DNA of 20,183 nucleotides from a virus. Both the position numbers and the translations under genes were made by a program. The stretch is taken from positions 1 to 20,183 of the IMG/VR virus record IMGVR_UViG_3300017917_002214; one strand, written 5' to 3'. Positions 6,565 through 15,257 of the stretch are shown in pieces (the stretch's first letter is position 1; each line of letters starts with the position of its first letter). The notes beneath the pieces are model-generated. The model was not told the DNA's origin and did not search any database. It saw nothing but the letters and a program-made list of their open reading frames with translations.

Positions 6565-7568
6565 TGGATTTTCTTAAAGAAATTGTAAAAGAAGTTGGTG
6601 GCGAGTACACTAAACTTGCCTCTGATATTGATGAAACTGAAACTTATGTTGATACAGGTTCGTACATTTTTAATGCATTGGTTTCAGGTAGTATATTTGG
6701 TGGTGTATCTGGGAATAAAATTACTGCTATTGCTGGAGAGTCTTCTACTGGAAAGACTTTTTTCTCTCTCGCCGTGGTTAAGAACTTTCTTGATACTCAT
6801 TCCGATGGTTACTGTCTCTACTTTGATACTGAGGCTGCTATCACTAAATCTCTTTTAGAATCCCGTGGAATTGATACTTCTCGTCTTGTAGTTGTCAACG
6901 TTGTTACTATTGAAGAGTTTAGGGGTAAAGCACTTAAGGCAGTGGATATTTACTTAAAAAAACCTATAGAAGATCGCAAACCTTGTATGTTTGTGTTAGA
7001 CTCCTTAGGTATGCTTTCAACTGAGAAAGAGATTACTGATGCTCTGAACGATAAGCAAGTTCGTGATATGACCAAATCACAACTTGTCAAAGGTGCTTTT
7101 CGTATGCTCACTCTTAAGTTGGGGCAAGCAAACATTCCAATGATTGTAACAAATCACACTTACGATGTCATCGGTGCTTACGTTCCTACTAAAGAGATGG
7201 GTGGTGGTAGTGGTCTTAAGTATGCCGCTTCTACTATCATATATCTCAGTAAGAAAAAAGAAAAGGATGGAACAGAAGTCGTCGGAAACATTATCAAGGC
7301 AAAGACTGCTAAGTCGCGTTTGAGTAAAGAGAATCAAGAAGTTGAAATTCGTTTATTTTATGATGAGCGTGGTCTTGATCGCTATTATGGTCTCTTAGAA
7401 CTTGGGGAACTTGGGGGACTTTGGAAAAATGTTGCCGGACGTTATGAAATGGAAGGTAAGAAAATTTATGCAAAACAAATTCTAGCAAATCCAGAGGAGT
7501 ATTTTACTCCTGAAGTAATGGAAAAACTAGACGTAATTGCTAAAGGTGAATTTAGTTATGGAGTATGA
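6564..7568 (+). CDS. uvsX: UvsX recombinase (RecA-like)
   Basis: ATP-dependent strand-exchange protein that drives recombination-dependent replication and repair, 334 aa (T4 UvsX has 391). Walker A is GESSTGKT at 58-65. Walker B is the strand CMFVLDS with D146. The RecA-type core continues through KGAFRMLTLKLGQANIPMIV, the TNHTY segment and the glycine-rich loop MGGGSGLKYA. The ATG overlaps the gp43 stop (TAATG) and the stop overlaps the next start (ATGA), giving tight coupling in the replication operon. Confidence 0.98.
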   Translation: MDFLKEIVKEVGGEYTKLASDIDETETYVDTGSYIFNALVSGSIFGGVSGNKITAIAGESSTGKTFFSLAVVKNFLDTHSDGYCLYFDTEAAITKSLLESRGIDTSRLVVVNVVTIEEFRGKALKAVDIYLKKPIEDRKPCMFVLDSLGMLSTEKEITDALNDKQVRDMTKSQLVKGAFRMLTLKLGQANIPMIVTNHTYDVIGAYVPTKEMGGGSGLKYAASTIIYLSKKKEKDGTEVVGNIIKAKTAKSRLSKENQEVEIRLFYDERGLDRYYGLLELGELGGLWKNVAGRYEMEGKKIYAKQILANPEEYFTPEVMEKLDVIAKGEFSYGV

Positions 7569-8110
7569 AAAATATCAGAATTATAGAAACTGGTATTGAT
7601 GTTTCCGGTATTTTGAATCAACTGAAGCAGTACTCAGAAGATTGGGGATCTCAAAAAAATATTAAAAATACAGAACAGTTAGATCCCACAAAATATCTTG
7701 TAACAGCAGATGTTCTTCAGTTGATTGTTGGTGGAATTGAAAAGGAAGGTGATTATGTTGGAAATACTGAAATTTGTATTAAAACGCCAGCATATGAAAG
7801 GCATACTGAAATTCTTAAATTTGTAAATAAGAGATTTAAGAAAATTAGAAGATGTGGATTTCTTGCAATTCCAGTAGGGGATAAGGTGGGATTTCATATT
7901 GATGAAGGAACCTATTATCTTACCAAAGACCGATACCATCTTTCGATTCAAGGAAGATATGAATATAGTGTTGGTGATGAAACTTTAGTTATTGAACCTG
8001 GAACATTTTTCTGGTTCAATAATAAATTGCCACACCAAGCTGTTAATATTGGAGATAATGTTAGAATAACATTTGTATTTGATGTTCCACATCATAAGAA
8101 AAACCCGTAA
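7565..8110 (+). CDS. 2-oxoglutarate/Fe(II) oxygenase, Asp/Asn beta-hydroxylase-like
   Basis: Likely non-haem iron dioxygenase using 2-oxoglutarate and oxygen, 181 aa. The facial triad is visible: H111-x-D113 in GFHIDEG and H157 in KLPHQAV. R167 (NVRITFVFD) is well placed to bind the 2-oxoglutarate carboxylate. The R-x-H-L segment (DRYHLSIQG) and G-x-x-x-W-F (GTFFWFNN) fit the aspartyl/asparaginyl hydroxylase subfamily of the double-stranded beta-helix fold. Such genes are frequent in cyanophages; the substrate is unknown. The gene is embedded between uvsX (4-nt overlap) and gp41 (8-nt gap), so it is expressed with replication genes. Confidence 0.9.
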   Translation: MKNIRIIETGIDVSGILNQLKQYSEDWGSQKNIKNTEQLDPTKYLVTADVLQLIVGGIEKEGDYVGNTEICIKTPAYERHTEILKFVNKRFKKIRRCGFLAIPVGDKVGFHIDEGTYYLTKDRYHLSIQGRYEYSVGDETLVIEPGTFFWFNNKLPHQAVNIGDNVRITFVFDVPHHKKNP

Positions 8111-8118
8111 TTAAAATA

Positions 8119-9498
8119 ATGGAAAGACTTGAACTTACAATTTTACGCAATTTAGTTTATAATGAAGATTATTCGCGCAAGGTCATACCTTTTATTCAAC
8201 CAGATTATTTTGAAAAAAAGTCCGAAAAAGTCACGTTTGAAGAAATTGTTAAGTTCATTGTTAAATATGGTTCAGCAATTACAATCGAAGCACTTGGTAT
8301 TGAAATAGAAGGAAGAACAGACTTAACAGAGACTGAAATAAAAGAGATACGTGAATTAGTGTCTGAATTTAATGATTCTCTAGTAGAAAAACAGTGGTTG
8401 CTTGATACTACTGAAAAGTGGTGTCGTGATCGTGCTATTTACTTGGCACTTATGGAGTCAATTCATATTGCCGATGGAAATAATGAAAAAAAGAATCGTG
8501 ATGCGATTCCTAGTATTCTTTCTGATGCCCTAGCAGTATCTTTTGACAATAATATCGGACACGATTATCTTCAGAACTATGAGGAGCGATATGAGTTTTA
8601 TCACCGAAAAGAAGACAAAATTGAATTTGATCTTGAATATTTTAATAAAATTACCAAAGGTGGGATTCCTAATAAAACTCTTAATATCGCTCTTGCTGGT
8701 ACGGGTGTCGGGAAATCTCTATTCATGTGTCATGTGGCTAGTTCCGTCTTATTGCAAGGCAGGAACGTTCTCTATATCACACTTGAAATGGCTGAGGAAC
8801 GAATTGCAGAAAGAATTGATGCAAACCTATTAAATGTTCCTATTCAGCAACTAGTAGATCTTCCTCGTCAGATGTTTGAGAATAAGGTGACAAGTCTATC
8901 CAAGAAAACTCAAGGTACTCTTATAATTAAAGAGTATCCAACTGCATCTGCACATAGTGGACATTTTAAGGCACTTCTTAATGAACTTGCACTTAAGAAG
9001 TCATTTAGACCTGACATTATTTTTATTGATTACCTTAATATTTGTGCTTCCTCTAGGCATAAGGCAAACAGCTCTATAAATTCTTATTCGTATATCAAAT
9101 CAATTGCTGAGGAATTGCGCGGACTCGCCGTTGAGTTTAACGTCCCAATTGTATCCGCTACTCAGACCACTCGTTCAGGTTATGGTAATTCTGATGTTGA
9201 ACTTACTGATACTAGTGAGTCCTTTGGTCTCCCTGCTACTGCTGATCTTATGTTTGCCCTTATTAGTACAGAAGAGTTGGAGGGGTTGGGGCAGATTATG
9301 GTGAAACAACTTAAAAATAGATATAATGACCCTACAATTTATAAAAGGTTTATTGTAGGAATTGATCGTGCTAAAATGCGTCTATATGACTGTGAACAAA
9401 CAGCACAAAAAGACATACTTGACTCTGGAAACGAAGAAGAGTATAATGATAGTGAAGACAAAAAACCTAAAAAATCATTTGAAGGATTTAAATTTTAA
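8119..9498 (+). CDS. 41: Replicative DNA helicase gp41 (DnaB-like)
   Basis: Hexameric 5'-3' helicase of the phage replisome, working with primase gp61; 459 aa (T4 gp41 has 475). The N-terminal DnaB-like helical domain covers roughly residues 1-140. The RecA-type core has Walker A AGTGVGKS at 193-200 (K199), the catalytic glutamate E223 in YITLEMAEERIA, Walker B IIFIDYLN (D304), and the H4/sensor motif PIVSATQTTRSG (Q349). The acidic/lysine-rich tail ends SFEGFKF. The stop overlaps the mazG start by 1 nt. Confidence 0.98.
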   Translation: MERLELTILRNLVYNEDYSRKVIPFIQPDYFEKKSEKVTFEEIVKFIVKYGSAITIEALGIEIEGRTDLTETEIKEIRELVSEFNDSLVEKQWLLDTTEKWCRDRAIYLALMESIHIADGNNEKKNRDAIPSILSDALAVSFDNNIGHDYLQNYEERYEFYHRKEDKIEFDLEYFNKITKGGIPNKTLNIALAGTGVGKSLFMCHVASSVLLQGRNVLYITLEMAEERIAERIDANLLNVPIQQLVDLPRQMFENKVTSLSKKTQGTLIIKEYPTASAHSGHFKALLNELALKKSFRPDIIFIDYLNICASSRHKANSSINSYSYIKSIAEELRGLAVEFNVPIVSATQTTRSGYGNSDVELTDTSESFGLPATADLMFALISTEELEGLGQIMVKQLKNRYNDPTIYKRFIVGIDRAKMRLYDCEQTAQKDILDSGNEEEYNDSEDKKPKKSFEGFKF

Positions 9499-9911
9499 TG
9501 GAAACCAAACACGTTAATTTTAATAAGTATGCTGAGTTTGTCGATGCTGTAACTTCTGATGCATCGAAAGACTTTCTTGCTCTTTCCGATCGTTTAGTTC
9601 AACTGGATGAGAAAGGTGCTAATATTGAGAGACTCTTGACTGCTGGTGTTGGTATCAACGCTGAAGGTGGTGAGTTTCTAGAAATTATTAAGAAAATGAT
9701 CTTCCAAGGTAAACCTTATAATGAGGACAATCGTGAGCACCTGATTATTGAGTTGGGTGATATTATGTGGTATGTTGCTCAAGCATGTATTGCACTTGAT
9801 GTCACTCTTGATGATGTAGTTGCTCGTAATGTTCAAAAACTTCTGAAGCGTTATCCTGAAGGTGCTTTTGATGTTTATTTCTCTGAAAACCGTGCTGCTG
9901 ACGACCGATGA
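9498..9911 (+). CDS. mazG: MazG-type nucleoside triphosphate pyrophosphohydrolase
   Basis: All-alpha NTP pyrophosphatase, 137 aa. The metal-binding pattern E-x-x-E (E56, E59 in AEGGEFLEII) and E-x-x-D (E85, D88 in IIELGDIMWYV) is complete. The following helix (VTLDDVVARNVQKLLKRYP) is typical of the family. MazG is a common host-like gene of cyanophages. It was proposed to lower ppGpp, but (d)NTP hydrolysis is the better supported activity for the family. It lies between the helicase gene and the tRNAs, and its stop overlaps the next ATG (ATGA). Confidence 0.93.
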   Translation: METKHVNFNKYAEFVDAVTSDASKDFLALSDRLVQLDEKGANIERLLTAGVGINAEGGEFLEIIKKMIFQGKPYNEDNREHLIIELGDIMWYVAQACIALDVTLDDVVARNVQKLLKRYPEGAFDVYFSENRAADDR

Positions 9912-10081
9912 AAAAAGTCACTCTTAAAATGGATGTTCGTTCATCTGCAGCAGTCCGTCAAGTTCTGTTTGAAGCACAGAGAGGTTATAGTTATGAACAC
10001 GTTCCTCAACGGATTACTGATATTCGTGCCGTTGTTCAAGATATTGACGATGCTATCGGTTCTGTGGTAGAATCTGATTGA
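9908..10081 (+). CDS. Small hypothetical protein, 57 aa
   Basis: Short ORF starting MKKVTLKMDVRSSAAVRQVLFEAQ and ending DAIGSVVESD. Its ATG overlaps the mazG stop (ATGA). No domain is recognised: there is a predicted strand, then a helix (AVRQVLFEAQRG), then another helix (RAVVQDIDDAI). Composition and codon use look like the neighbours, and the frame is used right up to the tRNA region. It is probably a real coupled small gene of unknown function. Confidence 0.7.
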   Translation: MKKVTLKMDVRSSAAVRQVLFEAQRGYSYEHVPQRITDIRAVVQDIDDAIGSVVESD

Positions 10082-10098: not shown

Positions 10099-10171
10099 GG
10101 GGAATTATCGCAGTTGGTAGTGCGCCTGATTTGTATTCGGGAGATCAGGAGTTCGAATCTCTTATTCTCCA
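10099..10171 (+). tRNA. tRNA-Thr (anticodon TGT)
   Basis: A 73-nt cloverleaf. Acceptor GGGGAAT/ATTCTCC has one G-U. The D loop is AGTTGGTA. The anticodon arm is CCTGA-TTTGTAT-TCGGG with anticodon TGT at 10132-10134. The T arm is AGGAG-TTCGAAT-CTCTT and the discriminator is A. No CCA is encoded. The D stem is imperfect (T10-C25 mismatch, G-U at 12-23). It reads ACA, a codon favoured in AT-rich phage genes. Confidence 0.88.
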
Positions 10172-10175
10172 CTTT

Positions 10176-10256
10176 GCCCAAGTGGTGTAATGGTAGCCAC
10201 GTATGCCTTAGGAGCATATATCGTAAGATGTGGAGGTTCGAGTCCTCTCTTGGGCA
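10176..10256 (+). tRNA. tRNA-Leu (anticodon TAG)
   Basis: An 81-nt class II tRNA. Acceptor GCCCAAG/CTTGGGC is perfect. The D arm is GTG/CAC. The anticodon arm is TATGC-CTTAGGA-GCATA with TAG at 10209-10211. The long variable arm has an ATC-GTAA-GAT mini-stem. The T arm is GGAGG-TTCGAGT-CCTCT. The discriminator is A and no CCA is encoded. It reads CTA. Only 4 nt separate it from tRNA-Thr, so the pair is probably co-transcribed. Confidence 0.93.
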
Positions 10257-10263
10257 CTAAATA
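10257..10263 (+). promoter_or_regulatory. Late promoter box CTAAATA directly after tRNA-Leu
   Basis: CTAAATA starts at the base immediately after the tRNA-Leu discriminator and ends 14 nt before the ATG at 10278, the same spacing as the box at 3204. It probably drives the accessory island as a late unit. Confidence 0.6.
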
Positions 10264-10277
10264 CTTGAAAAAGTCTT

Positions 10278-11135
10278 ATGGCTAAGATAGTTACAGAAAA
10301 TAGCACTGACCCAGATTATTATGATATTTGGGAATCTGCTGGAGCAAGAGGATATTTTAAATCTGGTGGTGGGGGATTTTTATATGAAGATTATTTGTAT
10401 TCTAAATGTAAGGATCTTGGATTAGTTCCTCCGGGATTTGCTCCTGCTGGTTCTGCTAATGATTTACCTGATCTTAAACTCCGTGTCGCTGGAGTTGGAC
10501 AAAAAACTTATACTAAAGGTATTCAACCACAAATTGCAAAGATTGAAATTAAATTAAATACTGAAGCTGATTTTGGACAAAGTGGTTTAAAGTGGGCTCC
10601 GGGAAGAAATTGGTATCTTGATGGGCAAAATAGTCCTGAGGGACTTCAAATGAGAACACTTCTTAATAGGATGGGTGTTCCTTTGAAAGTTAATGCTGCC
10701 TGGGGTGAATATGGACCACCTAAAAAATTTACGGCTGCAAAAACTGGGAGAGATATGAATAAAAAAGATTATGAATATGATATTCAAAGTTTTAAGGATG
10801 TCATATTAACTGGGGCTGATGCTCCAAATGTAACAACGTTGTTTCAATATTATGGTTCTAAACAAACAAATTATATACAAATAGGTGGTGGATATGGTCT
10901 TTATTATATGGGGTCTGATCCATTAAATTTAAAAACAGTCGGCGTCAAAGCATTTGATGGAACTTTAAAACTTAGGATTAGAAGAAAACCGGGTGGGAGT
11001 AGAACAGAACCATGGAACTATAGATTTTCTACTGCATTATTAATTGATAAAAAACCCAGACAAAGTAGTTTTGATTTGGAACAATCTGGAGAGGATCTAC
11101 TATACTATTTGGATAAATTTGGAGTATTTACATGA
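10278..11135 (+). CDS. Hypothetical protein, possible PD-(D/E)XK nuclease fold, 285 aa
   Basis: No family is recognised with certainty. Residues ~30-105 show spacing expected of a PD-(D/E)XK core. E37 lies in a helix (GFLYEDYLYSK), PD at 64-65 (ANDLPDLKL), E90-x-K92 in a strand (AKIEIKLN), and Q101 soon after (ADFGQ). An acidic residue, then D, then ExK, then Q is the usual order for this fold. The rest (to residue 285) is rich in Gly, Tyr and basic residues, with an RIRRKPGGSRTEPW stretch that might bind DNA. There is no signal peptide or membrane helix. It is preceded by a late box with little Shine-Dalgarno, and its stop overlaps the next start (ATGATG). Late expression would fit a packaging, recombination or packaged-nuclease role, but this is inference. 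Confidence 0.8.
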   Translation: MAKIVTENSTDPDYYDIWESAGARGYFKSGGGGFLYEDYLYSKCKDLGLVPPGFAPAGSANDLPDLKLRVAGVGQKTYTKGIQPQIAKIEIKLNTEADFGQSGLKWAPGRNWYLDGQNSPEGLQMRTLLNRMGVPLKVNAAWGEYGPPKKFTAAKTGRDMNKKDYEYDIQSFKDVILTGADAPNVTTLFQYYGSKQTNYIQIGGGYGLYYMGSDPLNLKTVGVKAFDGTLKLRIRRKPGGSRTEPWNYRFSTALLIDKKPRQSSFDLEQSGEDLLYYLDKFGVFT

Positions 11136-11380
11136 TGAAAGAACTGCAATTATTCATCAATAGTATTCTTGATATTTTTACAACCAAAAATTCAAGACCA
11201 AAAGATGTTTTTAACGATTTTATCAAGTATTTTTACTTCGCACTTGATAGGGAAATTCAATCTAATAAATCAGATTTGTTAAAGAATAAATATATTAAGA
11301 TTAGAAAGAATGGTCTCAATTACATTATTGCAAATGAAAAATCAATAATGTCGAGTATTTGTAATAGAACTAAAAAATAA
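11132..11380 (+). CDS. Small hypothetical protein, 82 aa
   Basis: Basic, helix-rich protein (MMKELQLFINSILDIF at the start, NRTKK at the end) with many Lys, Asn, Ile and Phe. The start overlaps the previous stop; translation could begin at either of two adjacent ATGs (11132 or 11135). It ends 2 nt before the capsid-targeted nucleotidyltransferase gene, so it belongs to the same unit. No domain is recognised. It could be a partner of the preceding nuclease-like protein, but nothing shows this directly. Confidence 0.7.
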   Translation: MMKELQLFINSILDIFTTKNSRPKDVFNDFIKYFYFALDREIQSNKSDLLKNKYIKIRKNGLNYIIANEKSIMSSICNRTKK

Positions 11381-11382
11381 GA

Positions 11383-12699
11383 ATGAAAAGTTTTTTCCAG
11401 TTTATTTCCGAAGCATCTGCATCCCAACAAGCAGCGCGTCTTGGTCTTGTTGGAGATGGGCACGGTGGATGGTATGATAAGCAAGGTGAGTTTGTAGCAA
11501 AAACTGAAGGTGGGCAACTTAAGTTTTATAATAAGCGTCAAAGAGTTGGACAAAAAGATCCGGCACAAACTGAAAAGGAAAAAACAATTGCATCACCTGG
11601 ATATAATGATCCAGCATTTCAGCAGCAAGCAACACAGCAGGCACCAGTAGAACAACCACCTGCACCCGAGCAGCAAGCAGCGCAGGAACAACCTCCTGTA
11701 CAATATCTTCCTGTTCCTAAAACAAAAGGAACTCTTACTATTGCCTTTGGTCGTTTTAATCCGCCAACAATTGGTCACCAACAATTGATGGATGTTGCGG
11801 CACAATCAGCCTCTCAAGATAAAGATGGGGAATATCTAATCTTCCCTTCTCGTAGTCAAGATAAGAAAAAGAATCCTCTTGACCCAGATACAAAGATTGC
11901 TTATATGCAGAAGTTCTATCCAAATCATGCAGGTAATATTGTAAATGATGCTAATACAAAGACAATTTTTGATGTCTTAAAAATGGCTCATAATAATGGA
12001 TATGCTGGGGTAAGAATTATTGGTGGTGCTGATAGAGTTAAGGAATTTGAAAAACTTTCTAATCAATATAATGGGCAACTTTATAACTTTGATAATATAG
12101 AAGTAGTTTCTGCAGGTGATAGAGACCCTGATGCAAAGGGTGTTGAAGGAATGTCTGCATCAAGAATGAGACTTGCTGCTGCCGAAGGTGACTTTAAAAC
12201 TTTTCGTTCAGGTCTTCCTCCCGAAGTAAAACCTGCAGAAGCAAGAGAATTATTTAATATTCTTCGTGGTGCGATGAATGTTAAAGAAGGTTGGGATATT
12301 TGGGAGATTGCTCCTAAACTTGATTTTCAGTCTCTTCGTGAAAATTATCTTTCGGAGGCAATCTTTAGACTTGGTGAAAAGGTTGAAAATTTAAATACTG
12401 GATTGATTGGGCGTATTATTCGCCGGGGAACTAATTATTTGATTTGTGTAACTGAGTCTGGGCAAATGTTTAAATCCTGGATTAAGGATTTGGTAGAATA
12501 TACTGAAGTAAAAATGGATCGAAAAATGAGAGATAAAATTCACCCTAATACTCTTACCGGAACTTTAGGAGCATTCAAACATTTTTCGGATATGACTCCT
12601 GGAGCAATCGAAACAGGGAAGAAAAATTTACAACCTGGTGGAAAGGCTTATACTGGATACAATATAAGAGAATTCATAAATAAATATAGAAAAAAGTAA
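11383..12699 (+). CDS. Capsid-targeted nucleotidyltransferase-like fusion protein, 438 aa
   Basis: Modular protein. Residues 1-11 (MKSFFQFISEA) closely match the capsid-targeting peptide of T4 internal proteins (MKTYQEFIAEA) and include a prohead-protease site I-x-E|A after E10. Residues ~15-50 hold a 'GLVGDGHGGWYDKQGEF' module that I recall from several cyanophage proteins. Residues ~72-112 are a Gln/Pro/Ala-rich linker. Residues ~115-300 look like a cytidylyltransferase-type domain: TIAFGRFNPPTIGHQQL with T129-x-G-H132 as the (H/T)xGH motif, RIIGGADR at 211-218, and MSASRMR at 257-263 resembling the ISxTxxR motif. Another L-S-E|A site is at 323-326. A C-terminal small beta domain follows (LGEKVENLNTGLIGRIIRRG, ~330-373), then a basic tail. 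The family transfers nucleotidyl groups to small molecules (for example NMN or phosphopantetheine); the substrate here is unknown. Probably packaged in the head and injected (inference). Confidence 0.88.
   Translation: MKSFFQFISEASASQQAARLGLVGDGHGGWYDKQGEFVAKTEGGQLKFYNKRQRVGQKDPAQTEKEKTIASPGYNDPAFQQQATQQAPVEQPPAPEQQAAQEQPPVQYLPVPKTKGTLTIAFGRFNPPTIGHQQLMDVAAQSASQDKDGEYLIFPSRSQDKKKNPLDPDTKIAYMQKFYPNHAGNIVNDANTKTIFDVLKMAHNNGYAGVRIIGGADRVKEFEKLSNQYNGQLYNFDNIEVVSAGDRDPDAKGVEGMSASRMRLAAAEGDFKTFRSGLPPEVKPAEARELFNILRGAMNVKEGWDIWEIAPKLDFQSLRENYLSEAIFRLGEKVENLNTGLIGRIIRRGTNYLICVTESGQMFKSWIKDLVEYTEVKMDRKMRDKIHPNTLTGTLGAFKHFSDMTPGAIETGKKNLQPGGKAYTGYNIREFINKYRKK
12676..12682 (+). promoter_or_regulatory. 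Possible late box ATAAATA before the modular protein
   Basis: CATAAATA lies in the last codons of the preceding gene, 31 nt before the ATG at 12714. It matches 7 of 8 bases of the T4 late box. AT-rich coding sequence gives similar matches by chance (AATAAATA occurs inside gp43 and the primase gene), so support is weak. Confidence 0.3.
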
Positions 12700-12713
12700 A
12701 TTAAAGAATTTCC

Positions 12714-14165
12714 ATGGCTCAAATTACAGGTGGACCTCATCGTGGACACGCCGCTGGTGATACTGATATTGAAAAACAAGCATCACAACTTGCATCTGAT
12801 GTAAAATATAAGGTCAGAAAAAGTATGAGTGGCTCAACGCATATGAATCCCGCACAAGTTGCTAGAGCATATCAGGCTCAATTGGATAAGTCTCCTGCAC
12901 CTGCGAATGTTAAAGCACTTGCAAAGAAAAAAATAATGGGGTCTTCATCACCTATTAGGAAAGAAGAATTTACTGATGGTAAAGATTTAGCAGTAGAAAG
13001 CGTTGCTAATGCGCTTTACGAAGTTTTTGTAGAGAAATCAGTACCAAAGATTGAAGAGCAAAGTGAATATCTAAAGGAATTATATTCTAAAGTTAATAAA
13101 AAAGGAGAAAGACTCTATCATATTATTGTAACTGATAAGAAGACTGGTAATACTTATACCCGTGATGCGACTCGTGAAAAGATTTCTGAACTTCGTGCAA
13201 ATCCAAATATTTCCTCAGTTGAAATGAGTGAGCGTCAGTTAGATTCTGAGGGAGAAAAATCTAAAGGAAAAAATACTGCAAGAGTAAAGGCAGGTAAAGG
13301 ATTAGATCCAGTAGGGCAAGAAGACTCTGATGTGAATAATGATGGTAAAGTAGATAAAACTGATAAGTATCTTCAGAACCGTAGAAATGTTCGTGGCGCA
13401 GCAATTGCAACTCGTAAAGAAGAGTTTATCCATGAGGCTGATAATGAAGATGTGAATACATCGAAAAAAAGAACTCAAATTAAACCTATGAAACCAGGTG
13501 AAAAAAATACAGTTATAATTTCGCCAACTCAAGGAAAAAAATTGGTTGCACACTATGAAATGGGGGGACCTTTCTTATCTGAAAAAGCAGTAAGTAAAGC
13601 ACAGCAGCGTTTTATGGGAATGGTTTATGCTGCTAAGAAAGGTGAAAAGGCAGCATCTCCCGAAGTTGCAAAGGCAGCTGCTGGAATGACTGGAAAGGAA
13701 GCAAAGAAATTTGCTAAAACAAAGCATAAAGGTCTACCTGGCCATGTCAAAGAAGAATCTGACTGTGGTATGGACGAAAAACCAAAACTCAAAAAAAGTG
13801 AAGGTGGTGAAGAAGACTCAAGATCAATTCCAACTAAAGTAAATTTGGTTAAGAATAAATTGAGATCCATGGGTCTTAAAATGTCTTATGAACTAGAGGG
13901 TGAAGTTATTGATGAGAGAAGAAAAGAAGATAAAGTAGCAGGAACTCCAAGAAAACCACGAAATCCTGCATTTGAGTTAGTTGCTAAATCCATGGGTACT
14001 AGTAGAATGGGTGTTCAACCCAGGGGGCAGAAGAAAGAACCAGGAAAAAAACCACCTGCTGCTGGTGAATATGGTTCTGGAGTAAAATCTCCGGCACAAA
14101 AAGTATCTATTCGTCGTGCTGCTGCTCAAAGAGCACAGGATATGATGCACTCAAGATTTGATTGA
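12714..14165 (+). CDS. Large lysine-rich modular protein with DUF3008 and EF-hand-like loop, 483 aa
   Basis: Multi-module, highly charged protein, probably virion or prohead associated. An N-terminal helical region (1-110) carries RKEEF at 82-86. Residues ~115-175 form a small domain (LYHIIVTDKKTGNTYTRDATREKI). A dockerin/EF-hand-like calcium loop is at 206-217 (DVNNDGKVDKTD). A second RKEEF at 234-238 runs into I-H-E|A (239-242), a candidate prohead-protease site. Residues ~290-345 match DUF3008 (AVSKAQQRFMGMVYAAKKGE, then SPEVAKAAAGM and KHKGLPGHV). The basic tail ends QRAQDMMHSRFD. DUF3008 has no known function. There is no membrane helix. The gene follows the capsid-targeted protein after 14 nt and may be co-expressed with it. 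The likely role, packaged DNA-binding or core protein, is inferred from composition and neighbours. Confidence 0.85.
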   Translation: MAQITGGPHRGHAAGDTDIEKQASQLASDVKYKVRKSMSGSTHMNPAQVARAYQAQLDKSPAPANVKALAKKKIMGSSSPIRKEEFTDGKDLAVESVANALYEVFVEKSVPKIEEQSEYLKELYSKVNKKGERLYHIIVTDKKTGNTYTRDATREKISELRANPNISSVEMSERQLDSEGEKSKGKNTARVKAGKGLDPVGQEDSDVNNDGKVDKTDKYLQNRRNVRGAAIATRKEEFIHEADNEDVNTSKKRTQIKPMKPGEKNTVIISPTQGKKLVAHYEMGGPFLSEKAVSKAQQRFMGMVYAAKKGEKAASPEVAKAAAGMTGKEAKKFAKTKHKGLPGHVKEESDCGMDEKPKLKKSEGGEEDSRSIPTKVNLVKNKLRSMGLKMSYELEGEVIDERRKEDKVAGTPRKPRNPAFELVAKSMGTSRMGVQPRGQKKEPGKKPPAAGEYGSGVKSPAQKVSIRRAAAQRAQDMMHSRFD

Positions 14166-14187
14166 TTGTTAAAAAAAGCTGAAGAGT

Positions 14188-14194
14188 CTAAATA
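14188..14194 (+). promoter_or_regulatory. Late promoter box CTAAATA upstream of the 56-codon ORF
   Basis: CTAAATA in an intergenic stretch, 31 nt upstream of the ATG at 14226, with a good GGAGG (14216-14220) between. Third exact copy of this heptamer in front of a gene in the window. Confidence 0.6.
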
Positions 14195-14225
14195 AGTTAG
14201 GATACTTCTATATACGGAGGACATC

Positions 14226-14396
14226 ATGGGAGCAATTGTAGAACTTGTAAAACCACTTCTTGTTCTGGCAGTAAACTCTTGCCATACTAAGAGACTTGTA
14301 TGTGATCTTCTTGACCGCTATGTTAAGACTACTGATAATGATATTGATAATGTTATTGCCGATACTGTAAGAACAGCACTTCTTAAAAATTGCTGA
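14226..14396 (+). CDS. Small late protein, 56 aa
   Basis: Starts MGAIVELVKPLLVLAVNSCHTKRLV and ends TALLKNC. The first third is hydrophobic (LVKPLLVLAV), but the length and the interrupting Lys and Pro make a true membrane span uncertain. The second half, DLLDRYVKTTDNDIDNVIADTV, is an acidic amphipathic helix. It has its own late box, a strong Shine-Dalgarno (GGAGG, 5 nt spacing) and a terminator 26 nt downstream, so it is a monocistronic late gene. I recall similar short proteins in other cyanophages but know no function. Confidence 0.8.
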   Translation: MGAIVELVKPLLVLAVNSCHTKRLVCDLLDRYVKTTDNDIDNVIADTVRTALLKNC

Positions 14397-14420
14397 TAAG
14401 TAGATATAAAATATCTCAAA

Positions 14421-14452
14421 AAGGAGACCTTTAAGTAGGGTCTCCTTTTTTT
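14421..14452 (+). terminator. Intrinsic terminator after the 56-codon gene
   Basis: A 7-bp stem GGAGACC/GGTCTCC (14423-14429 with 14439-14445), extended by two A-T pairs into the T tract, with a 9-nt loop or a 7-nt loop if the T-G wobble forms, and seven T at 14446-14452. It directly abuts the late box of the next gene. Confidence 0.9.
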
Positions 14453-14459
14453 ATAAATA
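14452..14459 (+). promoter_or_regulatory. Late promoter TATAAATA (exact T4 consensus)
   Basis: TATAAATA begins at the last T of the preceding terminator and ends 30 nt before the ATG at 14490. It is the exact T4 late consensus, in a terminator-promoter junction, upstream of a likely virion gene. Confidence 0.72.
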
Positions 14460-14489
14460 TTGATAGAAAAAGAATTAAGGGTAAGAAAC

Positions 14490-15257
14490 ATGTCACTTTG
14501 GGGCATTTCAACAAACGCTGAGACTGCTGCTAATAACTATGCTATTCCCAAGTTTTTGGGTAAATATTCTCCCGCCACTAGTCTTTTTGAAGCAACTGAT
14601 AGAAATAGAAGTCCTTACAACTGCTTTGCTGATAATCGTGGATGGATTCAAAGACATTATAAGTCTACACAACATTCTGGAATTTCCACTCGCTATTGGG
14701 ATTCTATTTTAGTTCCTATTGTTGGTTTAAATACTGCAGGTGCTGGAACCAGTACAGTTGGATTAGGAACTGCTACTCCAATTGCGGTTTTCTTTGAAGA
14801 TCCAAACTTTGCATCACCAATTAGCATTGGTGCTGGTGGAACTACTGGTATTTCTACAAATACTGTTGGTTATGTTCATGTCGTCTGGAATGAGGCAGTT
14901 TATTGCAGTGCTGGTGCAACAGTTCTGATTACTCCTTCTACTGGATCTAATATTGTTGCTTATGCAGCATCTGCAGGAGCTCCGATTCAACTTAATATTC
15001 CTGGAGTTGGTCAAACTGTAATCACCTTTAATGGGCAAATAACCAACAGAGTTGCTTTTGCGTTTACTGCACCTTCAACCGGTATTGGAGTAACTTTAAG
15101 AATTGCTACTGCAAATGGTGTTGTGGGAACAATTACCGACTTCTCTGGTGGTGCAGCAGTAGATAAAGTTATTAATGGTTTAGTTAAAAATATTGCTGGT
15201 GCTGGAACAACAATCGGTGTTGGTATTGGAACTACTGCATTATCGATTAAAGCATAA
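14490..15257 (+). CDS. Probable virion structural protein, 255 aa
   Basis: Starts MSLWGISTNAETAANNYAIPKFL. The 'MSLWG' opening is common among structural proteins of marine T4-like phages (from memory). The body is rich in Gly, Thr, Ser, Ala and Val, with many short 'GAGTST'/'GIGTT' segments suggesting an all-beta fold. The region from ~75 to the end has alternating strands and glycine turns. There are no catalytic motifs. A frame extension back to 14460 is rejected because it overlaps the late promoter; the ATG at 14490 has a weak AAGGG upstream. The exact position in the virion (decoration, neck or fibre-associated) cannot be told. The gene has an exact late promoter and is followed after 3 nt by another gene. 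Confidence 0.82.
   Translation: MSLWGISTNAETAANNYAIPKFLGKYSPATSLFEATDRNRSPYNCFADNRGWIQRHYKSTQHSGISTRYWDSILVPIVGLNTAGAGTSTVGLGTATPIAVFFEDPNFASPISIGAGGTTGISTNTVGYVHVVWNEAVYCSAGATVLITPSTGSNIVAYAASAGAPIQLNIPGVGQTVITFNGQITNRVAFAFTAPSTGIGVTLRIATANGVVGTITDFSGGAAVDKVINGLVKNIAGAGTTIGVGIGTTALSIKA

Follow-up and report, generated by a model that had tools for sequence, protein, structure and literature searches.

Virus-encoded restriction-type nucleases are known from the chloroviruses, whose restriction enzymes are packaged in the virions and thought to degrade host DNA; these enzymes were not responsible for the exclusion of a second virus, and their genes adjoin the genes of their own methyltransferases (sections of PMC7019647). 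A second group of described systems is formed by F-CphI of phage S-PM2, which targets psbA, and the free-standing homing endonucleases of the T4 family, nucleases whose genes border exchanged segments (excerpts of PMC10448857). F-CphI carries an endonuclease VII motif (excerpt of PMC6083498).

In this work we analysed a window of 20,183 bases, positions 1 to 20,183 of the virus record IMGVR_UViG_3300017917_002214, in which the gene order around MazG and a cytidylyltransferase is that of T4-like cyanophages. The 285-aa protein encoded in between is called X below (Table 1). To our knowledge, little is understood of the ways in which marine cyanophages dismantle the genome of the host and keep out rivals. 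Like CviJI, Nt.CviQII and the enzymes packaged in PBCV-1 virions, X is predicted to be a virus-encoded restriction-type nuclease. The 50 BFVD matches listed for X do not include CviJI, which is a structural neighbour of another gene family found at the same locus (family 2 below). X differs from F-CphI in having a PD-(D/E)XK core and in sitting between mazG and the cytidylyltransferase gene. The best explanation, to which we assign a probability of about 60%, is that X is a late, type II-restriction-like endonuclease that cuts non-self DNA, is exchanged at a slot and is perhaps carried in the virion.

Table 1. Features at the X locus, with coordinates in the window unless a relative's locus is named.
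Feature	Position	Strand	Basis
MazG pyrophosphohydrolase, left flank gene	9498..9911	+	family matches
tRNA-Thr(tgt), left flank of exchange slot	10099..10172	+	tRNA call
tRNA-Leu(tag), ends at box	10176..10257	+	tRNA call
CTAAATA late-promoter-like box, 14 nt before start codon of X	10257..10263	+	place conserved against shuffles
Exchanged segment	10275..11352	+	among 27 near-relative records, aligns only in L002 and overlapping copy L208
PD-(D/E)XK nuclease-like protein X, 285 aa (phrog_26930)	10278..11135	+	ORF, family, model, structural matches
Codon of E37 (helix 1 acid)	10386..10388	+	kept in 101/101 distinct sequences with the position
Codon of D65 (predicted catalytic Asp)	10470..10472	+	101/101
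Codons of E90-x-K92 (predicted catalytic Glu, Lys)	10545..10553	+	102/102 each
Codon of Q101	10578..10580	+	101/102
82-aa ORF, 4-nt overlap with X end, optional	11132..11380	+	ORF list, synteny
Cytidylyltransferase-like protein, right flank of slot	11383..12699	+	family matches
DNA methyltransferase directly before X	L035:4804-5727, L039:4807-5730, L040:1127-2050, L007:6807-7730		phmmer

Family, active-site residues and predicted fold of X

The first-pass annotation had read this ORF as a possible PD-(D/E)XK nuclease of unrecognised family, and E37, P64-D65, E90-x-K92 and Q101 are all found at the positions it named. The family is unrecognised indeed: window X gave zero matches in Pfam and PADLOC and one chance-level match in NCBIfam (E 0.05), and only PHROGs placed it, in phrog_26930 (E 8.7e-17), an entry listed as 'unknown function' that all 8 members of alignment A1 match (best E 3.8e-83). 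Searches of PDB sequences with the X profiles A1 and A3 returned chance-level matches only; A3 had four matches at E<=10 with no restriction enzyme among those four, and a match to Hjc was marginal (E 0.92). A search of the openly readable literature found no paper on X (PSSM2_192 of P-SSM2).

By tblastn, X homologues were found in 9 phage records with the window query and in 10 with the P-TIM40 or P-SSM2 query (P-SSM2, 3 records; P-TIM40, 2 records; P-SSM5, S-8S53, S-H25, AG-345-D19 and AG-345-E02), which are exclusively cyanophages or single-cell marine viruses. Since the cytidylyltransferase neighbour is present in 533 records of the same phage collection, X is a minority gene there. A profile scan of IMG/VR recovered 211 relatives from 270 candidates (80 kept), and 59 out of 62 candidates were X relatives in a scan with the P-TIM40 query. 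One copy of X per record was found in the 5 X-bearing records among 14 searched. None of the 12 pattern matches from a contig scan of bacterial and archaeal genomes with A2 was confirmed as an X relative, and distant cellular relatives may be missed because a single pattern was used. The X family is uncharacterised; in kind it is a variation on the restriction-type or homing nucleases that viruses are already known to encode.

The residue counts cover 150 loci, the window and overlapping locus copies included, which yield 103 distinct ORF sequences; the denominators of 101 and 102 in Table 1 count only sequences having the position, as two fragments lack some positions. E37, D65, E90 and K92 are kept in every sequence with the position, which indicates selection for catalysis. 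The sole variant at Q101 is Ser in S-H25 (102 sequences with the position), P64 is not invariant (P in 49 and A in 52 distinct sequences), and the other residues without variation in the 103-sequence set include W142, D168, Y192, K195, R233 and K237. In an earlier alignment of 68 distinct rows, from which S-H25 was left out, E37, D65, E90, K92 and Q101 were each kept in 68/68. The same five fall among the 21 invariant columns of the 46-sequence alignment A3; the chance that five prechosen residues of 285 do so is 1.3e-6, a figure that omits P64 and the clustering of conserved columns. X is encoded beside a virion protein and its catalysis is a prediction, so one may think of a former nuclease that keeps the fold and now serves as a DNA-binding or structural protein, but the complete retention of E37, D65, E90 and K92 makes this very improbable.

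An AlphaFold2 model of X built on 46 sequences has a mean pLDDT of 86.1 and a pTM of 0.81, with residues 1-30 below pLDDT 50. The core elements are helix 32-46, strands 66-71, 85-92 and 98-106, helices in 120-171 and strands 175-177 and 199-202, that is, the alpha-beta-beta-beta-alpha-beta order of the fold proposed in the first-pass annotation. Helix 32-46 carries E37, strand 85-92 both E90 and K92, and strand 98-106 Q101, while D65 immediately precedes strand 66-71. Neither of the two outcomes that would have spoken against the annotation, loss of D65, E90 or K92 in homologues or a predicted fold lacking this core, was observed. The C-terminal half contributes strands 230-238 and 248-256 with the invariant R233 and K237.

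HhaI (PDB 6uke) is the best solved match of the model in VIA-align (Z 10.2, 178 residues, 4.1 A), with model residues 31-280 placed on chain residues 1-258 and 178/258 HhaI residues aligned; further matches include Hjc up to 6.3 (111 residues), SPARDA at 5.8, HinP1I at 5.7 (180 residues) and SwaI at 3.5. X and HhaI are thus alike along nearly the whole chain and similar in size, but the identity in the aligned part is 12% and a sequence-profile match is lacking. Foldseek against the PDB gave weak matches, none at E <= 0.001: HinP1I came first (E 0.01, probability 0.30), followed by mostly unrelated chains with SfiI as fourth (E 0.37). The BFVD search put the P-SSM2 homologue at the top (E 7e-25); at rank seven stood an S-CAM1 protein of 407 aa, itself uncharacterised (E 2.4e-3, probability 0.90). 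Together with the conserved residues, the predicted core strongly supports the identification of X as a DNA endonuclease with a PD-(D/E)XK fold; nuclease activity is what the model predicts.

Roles in packaging, recombination or attack on host DNA had been suggested for X, and attack on non-self DNA fits best, the other two having only the weaker likeness to a Holliday junction resolvase. Such a structure-specific nuclease (a resolvase, or a packaging or recombination nuclease) would trim branched phage DNA late in infection, a timing with which the late box described below is in keeping. Archaeal Hjc has the core in common with X, its chains reach Z 5.7-6.3 over 109-112 residues, and the marginal Hjc profile match points the same way. 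HhaI scores well above Hjc, however; X is about twice as long and has an additional conserved C-terminal half, and the gene is dispensable in some such phages since the slot of S-SRM01 is empty. The resolvase role has the weaker structural support in these models, and we consider it improbable.

Late-promoter-like box and neighbouring genes

X had also been described as the first gene behind a late promoter. The number of CTAAATA boxes in the window lends this no support, with 4 found against 4.77 expected, which is not above chance; the support comes from the conserved position of the box. TAAATA is found up to 100 bp upstream of X in 87/92 distinct upstream regions (dinucleotide shuffles: mean 9.5, maximum 15) and CTAAATA in 42/92 (shuffles: mean 1.8, maximum 5), with a median of 17 nt from the end of TAAATA to the start codon. 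The same hexamer precedes mazG in 1/84 cases, gp41 in 1/65 and uvsX in 1/52, and the cytidylyltransferase gene in 48/83 (shuffles 12.6). Upstream of the alternative slot genes introduced below it was counted, without a shuffle control, in 13/14 cases for family 2, 7/7 for c5, 10/13 for the phrog_1462 type and 0/1 for c20. We take the TAAATA-type box to be the late promoter motif of T4-like cyanophages. The sequence comparison supports the view that X is made late in infection from this conserved late-promoter-like box.

Two tRNA genes stand directly before the box in the window; in many relatives this place is taken by tRNA-Ala(tgc), tRNA-Leu(tag) or both, and in others by no tRNA gene. X had been said to precede a capsid-targeted enzyme. 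The cytidylyltransferase is indeed downstream, with the 82-aa ORF between the two genes. The P-SSM2 homologue of this cytidylyltransferase belongs to family T4-GC190, which was found in S-SM1 virions (PMC3037559, section 26, an excerpt). We rejected the 82-aa ORF as an immunity partner of X: its relatives also accompany slot genes other than X and occur where the slot holds none of the listed families. Relatives next to a different slot gene are found in L178 and L179 (phmmer), and ORFs of similar size and place in L189, L190, L195 and L197.

Further observations concern the surrounding genes. Beside the cytidylyltransferase gene, window positions 12714-14165 encode a 483-aa protein in which DUF3008 is matched at E 5.5e-6 and one stretch weakly resembles dockerin (E 0.031). 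DUF6267 (PF19782) proteins adjoin the cytidylyltransferase in S-8S53 (L004:8874-10073) and P-TIM40 (L006:8767-9954) and carry KWDGAPA(I/V)ICG, which we take to resemble motif I (KxDG) of ligases and capping-type nucleotidyltransferases. The first part of phrog_455 matches DUF6267 proteins and a later part the cytidylyltransferase.

Exchange slot and its alternative genes

Where the contig reaches, the X loci have mazG upstream and the cytidylyltransferase gene downstream, with extra genes between in some loci; in L058 mazG was not recognised upstream of X. X is followed by the cytidylyltransferase gene directly, by an ORF of 65-82 aa, by an ORF of about 208 aa or by a DUF6267 gene. In two loci an ORF that looks HNH-like by eye, possibly a homing endonuclease, lies between mazG and the slot gene (L178:2787-3410).

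We compared the window by BLASTn with 27 near-relative records, several of which are near-identical to each other, considering pieces over 60 bases. In 25/27 records both flanks align and nothing aligns within the exchanged segment of Table 1; the two exceptions, L002 and its overlapping copy L208, are an X-carrying contig. Similarity ends on the left at 10258-10274 in 19/25 records (the tRNA-Leu end or the box) and at 9915-10065 in 6/25, and it resumes on the right at 11353-11383 in all 25, the flanking aligned pieces being about 71-90% identical. Because the alignment stops and resumes at the edges of the segment while the flanks are conserved, the X-containing segment is exchanged as a unit. 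In most of the 27 records other intervals do not align either, namely about 7562-8110, 12700-13128 and 14173-15254; the first holds a gene located where the relatives encode a 2OG-Fe(II) oxygenase, the second belongs to the 483-aa protein, of which it is a part, and the third corresponds to a 265-aa protein. The X slot is therefore not the sole variable site, and the region has several exchanged segments.

Slot contents were surveyed with the cytidylyltransferase, not X, as query; the best 80 of 144 loci were taken, 73 of them with both flanks, and only slot ORFs of at least 200 aa were counted. Among these 73 loci the slot holds family 2 in 26, a phrog_1462-like gene in 13 and one together with c20 in 1, c5 in 11, c17 and X in 2 each, c13, c15 and c19 in 1 each, and none of the listed families in 15. 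Two slot families occur together only in L053 and L224 among the classified loci. The same-genus phages S-8S53, S-8S55 and S-8S56 carry X, c13 and family 2, respectively. In S-SRM01 the slot is empty, with tRNA-Leu, 58 nt and the cytidylyltransferase gene in succession, so X is not needed in every such phage. The occupancy of this mazG-cytidylyltransferase exchange slot by the X gene is new here.

The most frequent alternative gene, family 2 (slot ALTERNATIVES), keeps E95, K140, D142, S156-H157-K158 and Q168 invariant in 26 sequences, and its S-8S56 member matches phrog_13937. Its model (pLDDT 89.7, pTM 0.68) has MspI as best match at Z 7.1 over 165 residues, although a Z below 8 such as this one can reflect a common arrangement, followed by Hjc at 4.8. 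In BFVD, CviJI stands at rank 5 after uncharacterised proteins (E 1.3e-13, probability 1.00, 21% identity), the nicking enzyme Nt.CviQII is matched at E 6.6e-10, and X of P-SSM2 only at E 1.0 and probability 0.11. Against PDB sequences, the family 2 profile A5 gave chance-level matches, the first being PvuII at E 0.29.

Read for motifs, c5, c13, c15, c19 and the S-SM1 slot gene show either D...S-x-K or C-S-x-K; all 7/7 c5 rows and 2/2 c13 rows retain D and S-x-K, and in c15 the motif was found in 1/2 members. The motif search gave no clear motif for c17, and it missed or mislocated S-L-K in several members of the phrog_1462 type, where S-L-K is invariant in 14/14 rows. Eight slot proteins other than X were compared with Pfam, and none matched a nuclease family. 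By this motif alone, c5, c13, c15 and c19 are perhaps nucleases. Homology between the slot families was looked for and not found: apart from phrog_1462 with c20, every pair compared had an hhalign probability of <3%. By structure prediction, two unrelated restriction-type folds, perhaps more, would alternate at one locus.

The exchange pattern raises the question of whether X could be a free-standing homing endonuclease that cuts the X-less slot of a co-infecting phage, after which repair copies X across. This is the strongest rival reading because exact exchange with empty alleles is the trace that homing leaves. The exchange is confined to the slot and the flanks are conserved, a pattern that also fits exchange without homing; the slot is empty in S-SRM01 and free of a listed family in 15/73 sampled loci; tRNA genes adjoin it in the window and many relatives; and X has no fixed partner methyltransferase. 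Nucleases are known at the borders of phage genetic exchange (in the excerpts of PMC10448857), and PD-(D/E)XK is among the six homing families listed in the available part of PMC6083498. On the other side, X resembles type II enzymes over the whole chain. Homing enzymes may simply be absent from the VIA-align match list, so a missing match says little about them. Homing genes often decay, but the catalytic residues of X show no decay in 103 distinct sequences. Nor would homing lead one to expect a methyltransferase beside X, as found in four loci (see below). Several other intervals near the slot are exchanged too. The methyltransferase pairing, the lack of decay and the whole-chain likeness to restriction enzymes tip the balance, and we regard homing as unlikely next to the restriction-like endonuclease.

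Methyltransferases, site avoidance and proposed role

In L035, L039, L040 and L007 (AG-345-D19) a near-identical DNA methyltransferase (METHYLTRANSFERASES) is encoded between mazG and X; the two tested, from L035 and L039, match PF01555 at E 1.7e-58 and 2.1e-58. Unlike the chlorovirus restriction genes, X adjoins such a gene in only 4/150 loci, some contigs ending short upstream, and no methyltransferase gene adjoins X in the window, so that a fixed partner as a further point of likeness to HhaI is lacking. In P-TIM68 a PF01555 gene adjoins the phrog_1462-type slot gene. The methyltransferase-X neighbourhood has the arrangement of a restriction-modification pair, and going by gene order it is a possible but rare one. 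The window also has a D12 methyltransferase gene at 1010-1897, with relatives in X-free phages and none in the X-bearing S-8S53. X as half of a Dam-type system was rejected, as PF02086 (D12) occurs in 4/5 X-bearing and 6/9 X-free records, which indicates no link.

Sites avoided by X-bearing genomes were also sought. The pieces covered 200/213 kb of G001, 200/236 kb of G003, 180/188 kb of G004, all 75 kb of G002, 240/252 kb of P-SSM2, 180/189 kb of P-TIM40, 160/174 kb of S-H25, 160/241 kb of S-SRM01, 160/197 kb of P-TIM68 and 80/205 kb of Bellamy; S-8S53, S-8S55 and S-8S56 were covered whole. The HhaI site is GCGC. It is missing from the pieces of P-SSM2 (0 against 70 expected) and P-TIM40 (0 against 104), as self-avoidance would have it, but HhaI specificity for the whole X family was rejected, as the X-bearing S-8S53 has 120 of 147 expected and S-H25 110 of 170; in the window it is not avoided, with 15 found against 15.6 expected. 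Every palindromic 4-mer occurs in the window. Among words of 4-6 bases, none is clearly and uniquely absent from X-bearing genomes among near relatives. With the expected count set at 8 or more, only CGATCG (0/8.2) and TACGTA (0/8.8) are uniquely missing from G001 (X) in comparison with G003 (c13) and G004 (family 2), and in view of the number of words tested we discarded them as evidence of a target. S-8S53 has no uniquely missing word relative to its sisters S-8S55 and S-8S56, and avoidance of a short palindrome does not consistently accompany X. There is thus no consistent sign of self-protection, a point against the restriction-type reading proposed below.

Two other sites are mentioned for the record. 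CCGG is absent from P-SSM2 (0/82 expected), P-TIM40 (0/106) and S-H25 (0/135) in pieces L329-L348 and L358-L366, and is not avoided in S-SRM01 (96 against 101 expected). S-H25 has 91 GATC against 670 expected and two D12 methyltransferase matches.

We propose that X would recognise a specific site and cut both strands through a metal-dependent D65/E90/K92 centre. This type II-like action is suggested by the HhaI-like fold over the whole chain, the CviJI/MspI-like replacement gene and the methyltransferase in four loci. The target would be non-self DNA, either the host chromosome or a competing phage; the latter is disfavoured because chlorovirus restriction enzymes did not cause exclusion (as far as the sections of PMC7019647 go). 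By analogy with the chloroviruses, X might enter the next cell together with the DNA of the phage, which is the weakest step of the proposal; it may travel so because it is made late and adjoins a virion enzyme. Visual inspection of X revealed no capsid-targeting start. Related phages swap the whole X gene for different genes, which is what a benefit from changes of specificity would lead one to expect.

A wider and more tentative reading, which we think doubtful in its full extent, is that one slot of T4-like cyanophages keeps interchangeable late site-specific endonucleases, loaded into or made with the virion beside the packaged cytidylyltransferase and directed against host or rival DNA, usually without a methyltransferase. 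The HhaI-like, the CviJI/MspI-like and several unrelated D..SxK types would then together be the counterpart, in bacterial viruses, of the packaged restriction enzymes of chloroviruses. If true, this would give a defined, testable set of phage enzymes and a source of new restriction specificities. It would also provide a function for phrog_26930 and a candidate function for phrog_13937 and, by motif only, for phrog_12709, phrog_2496 and phrog_1462, now listed as 'unknown function', and it would help to explain the differences at the mazG-cytidylyltransferase locus between phages that are similar elsewhere.
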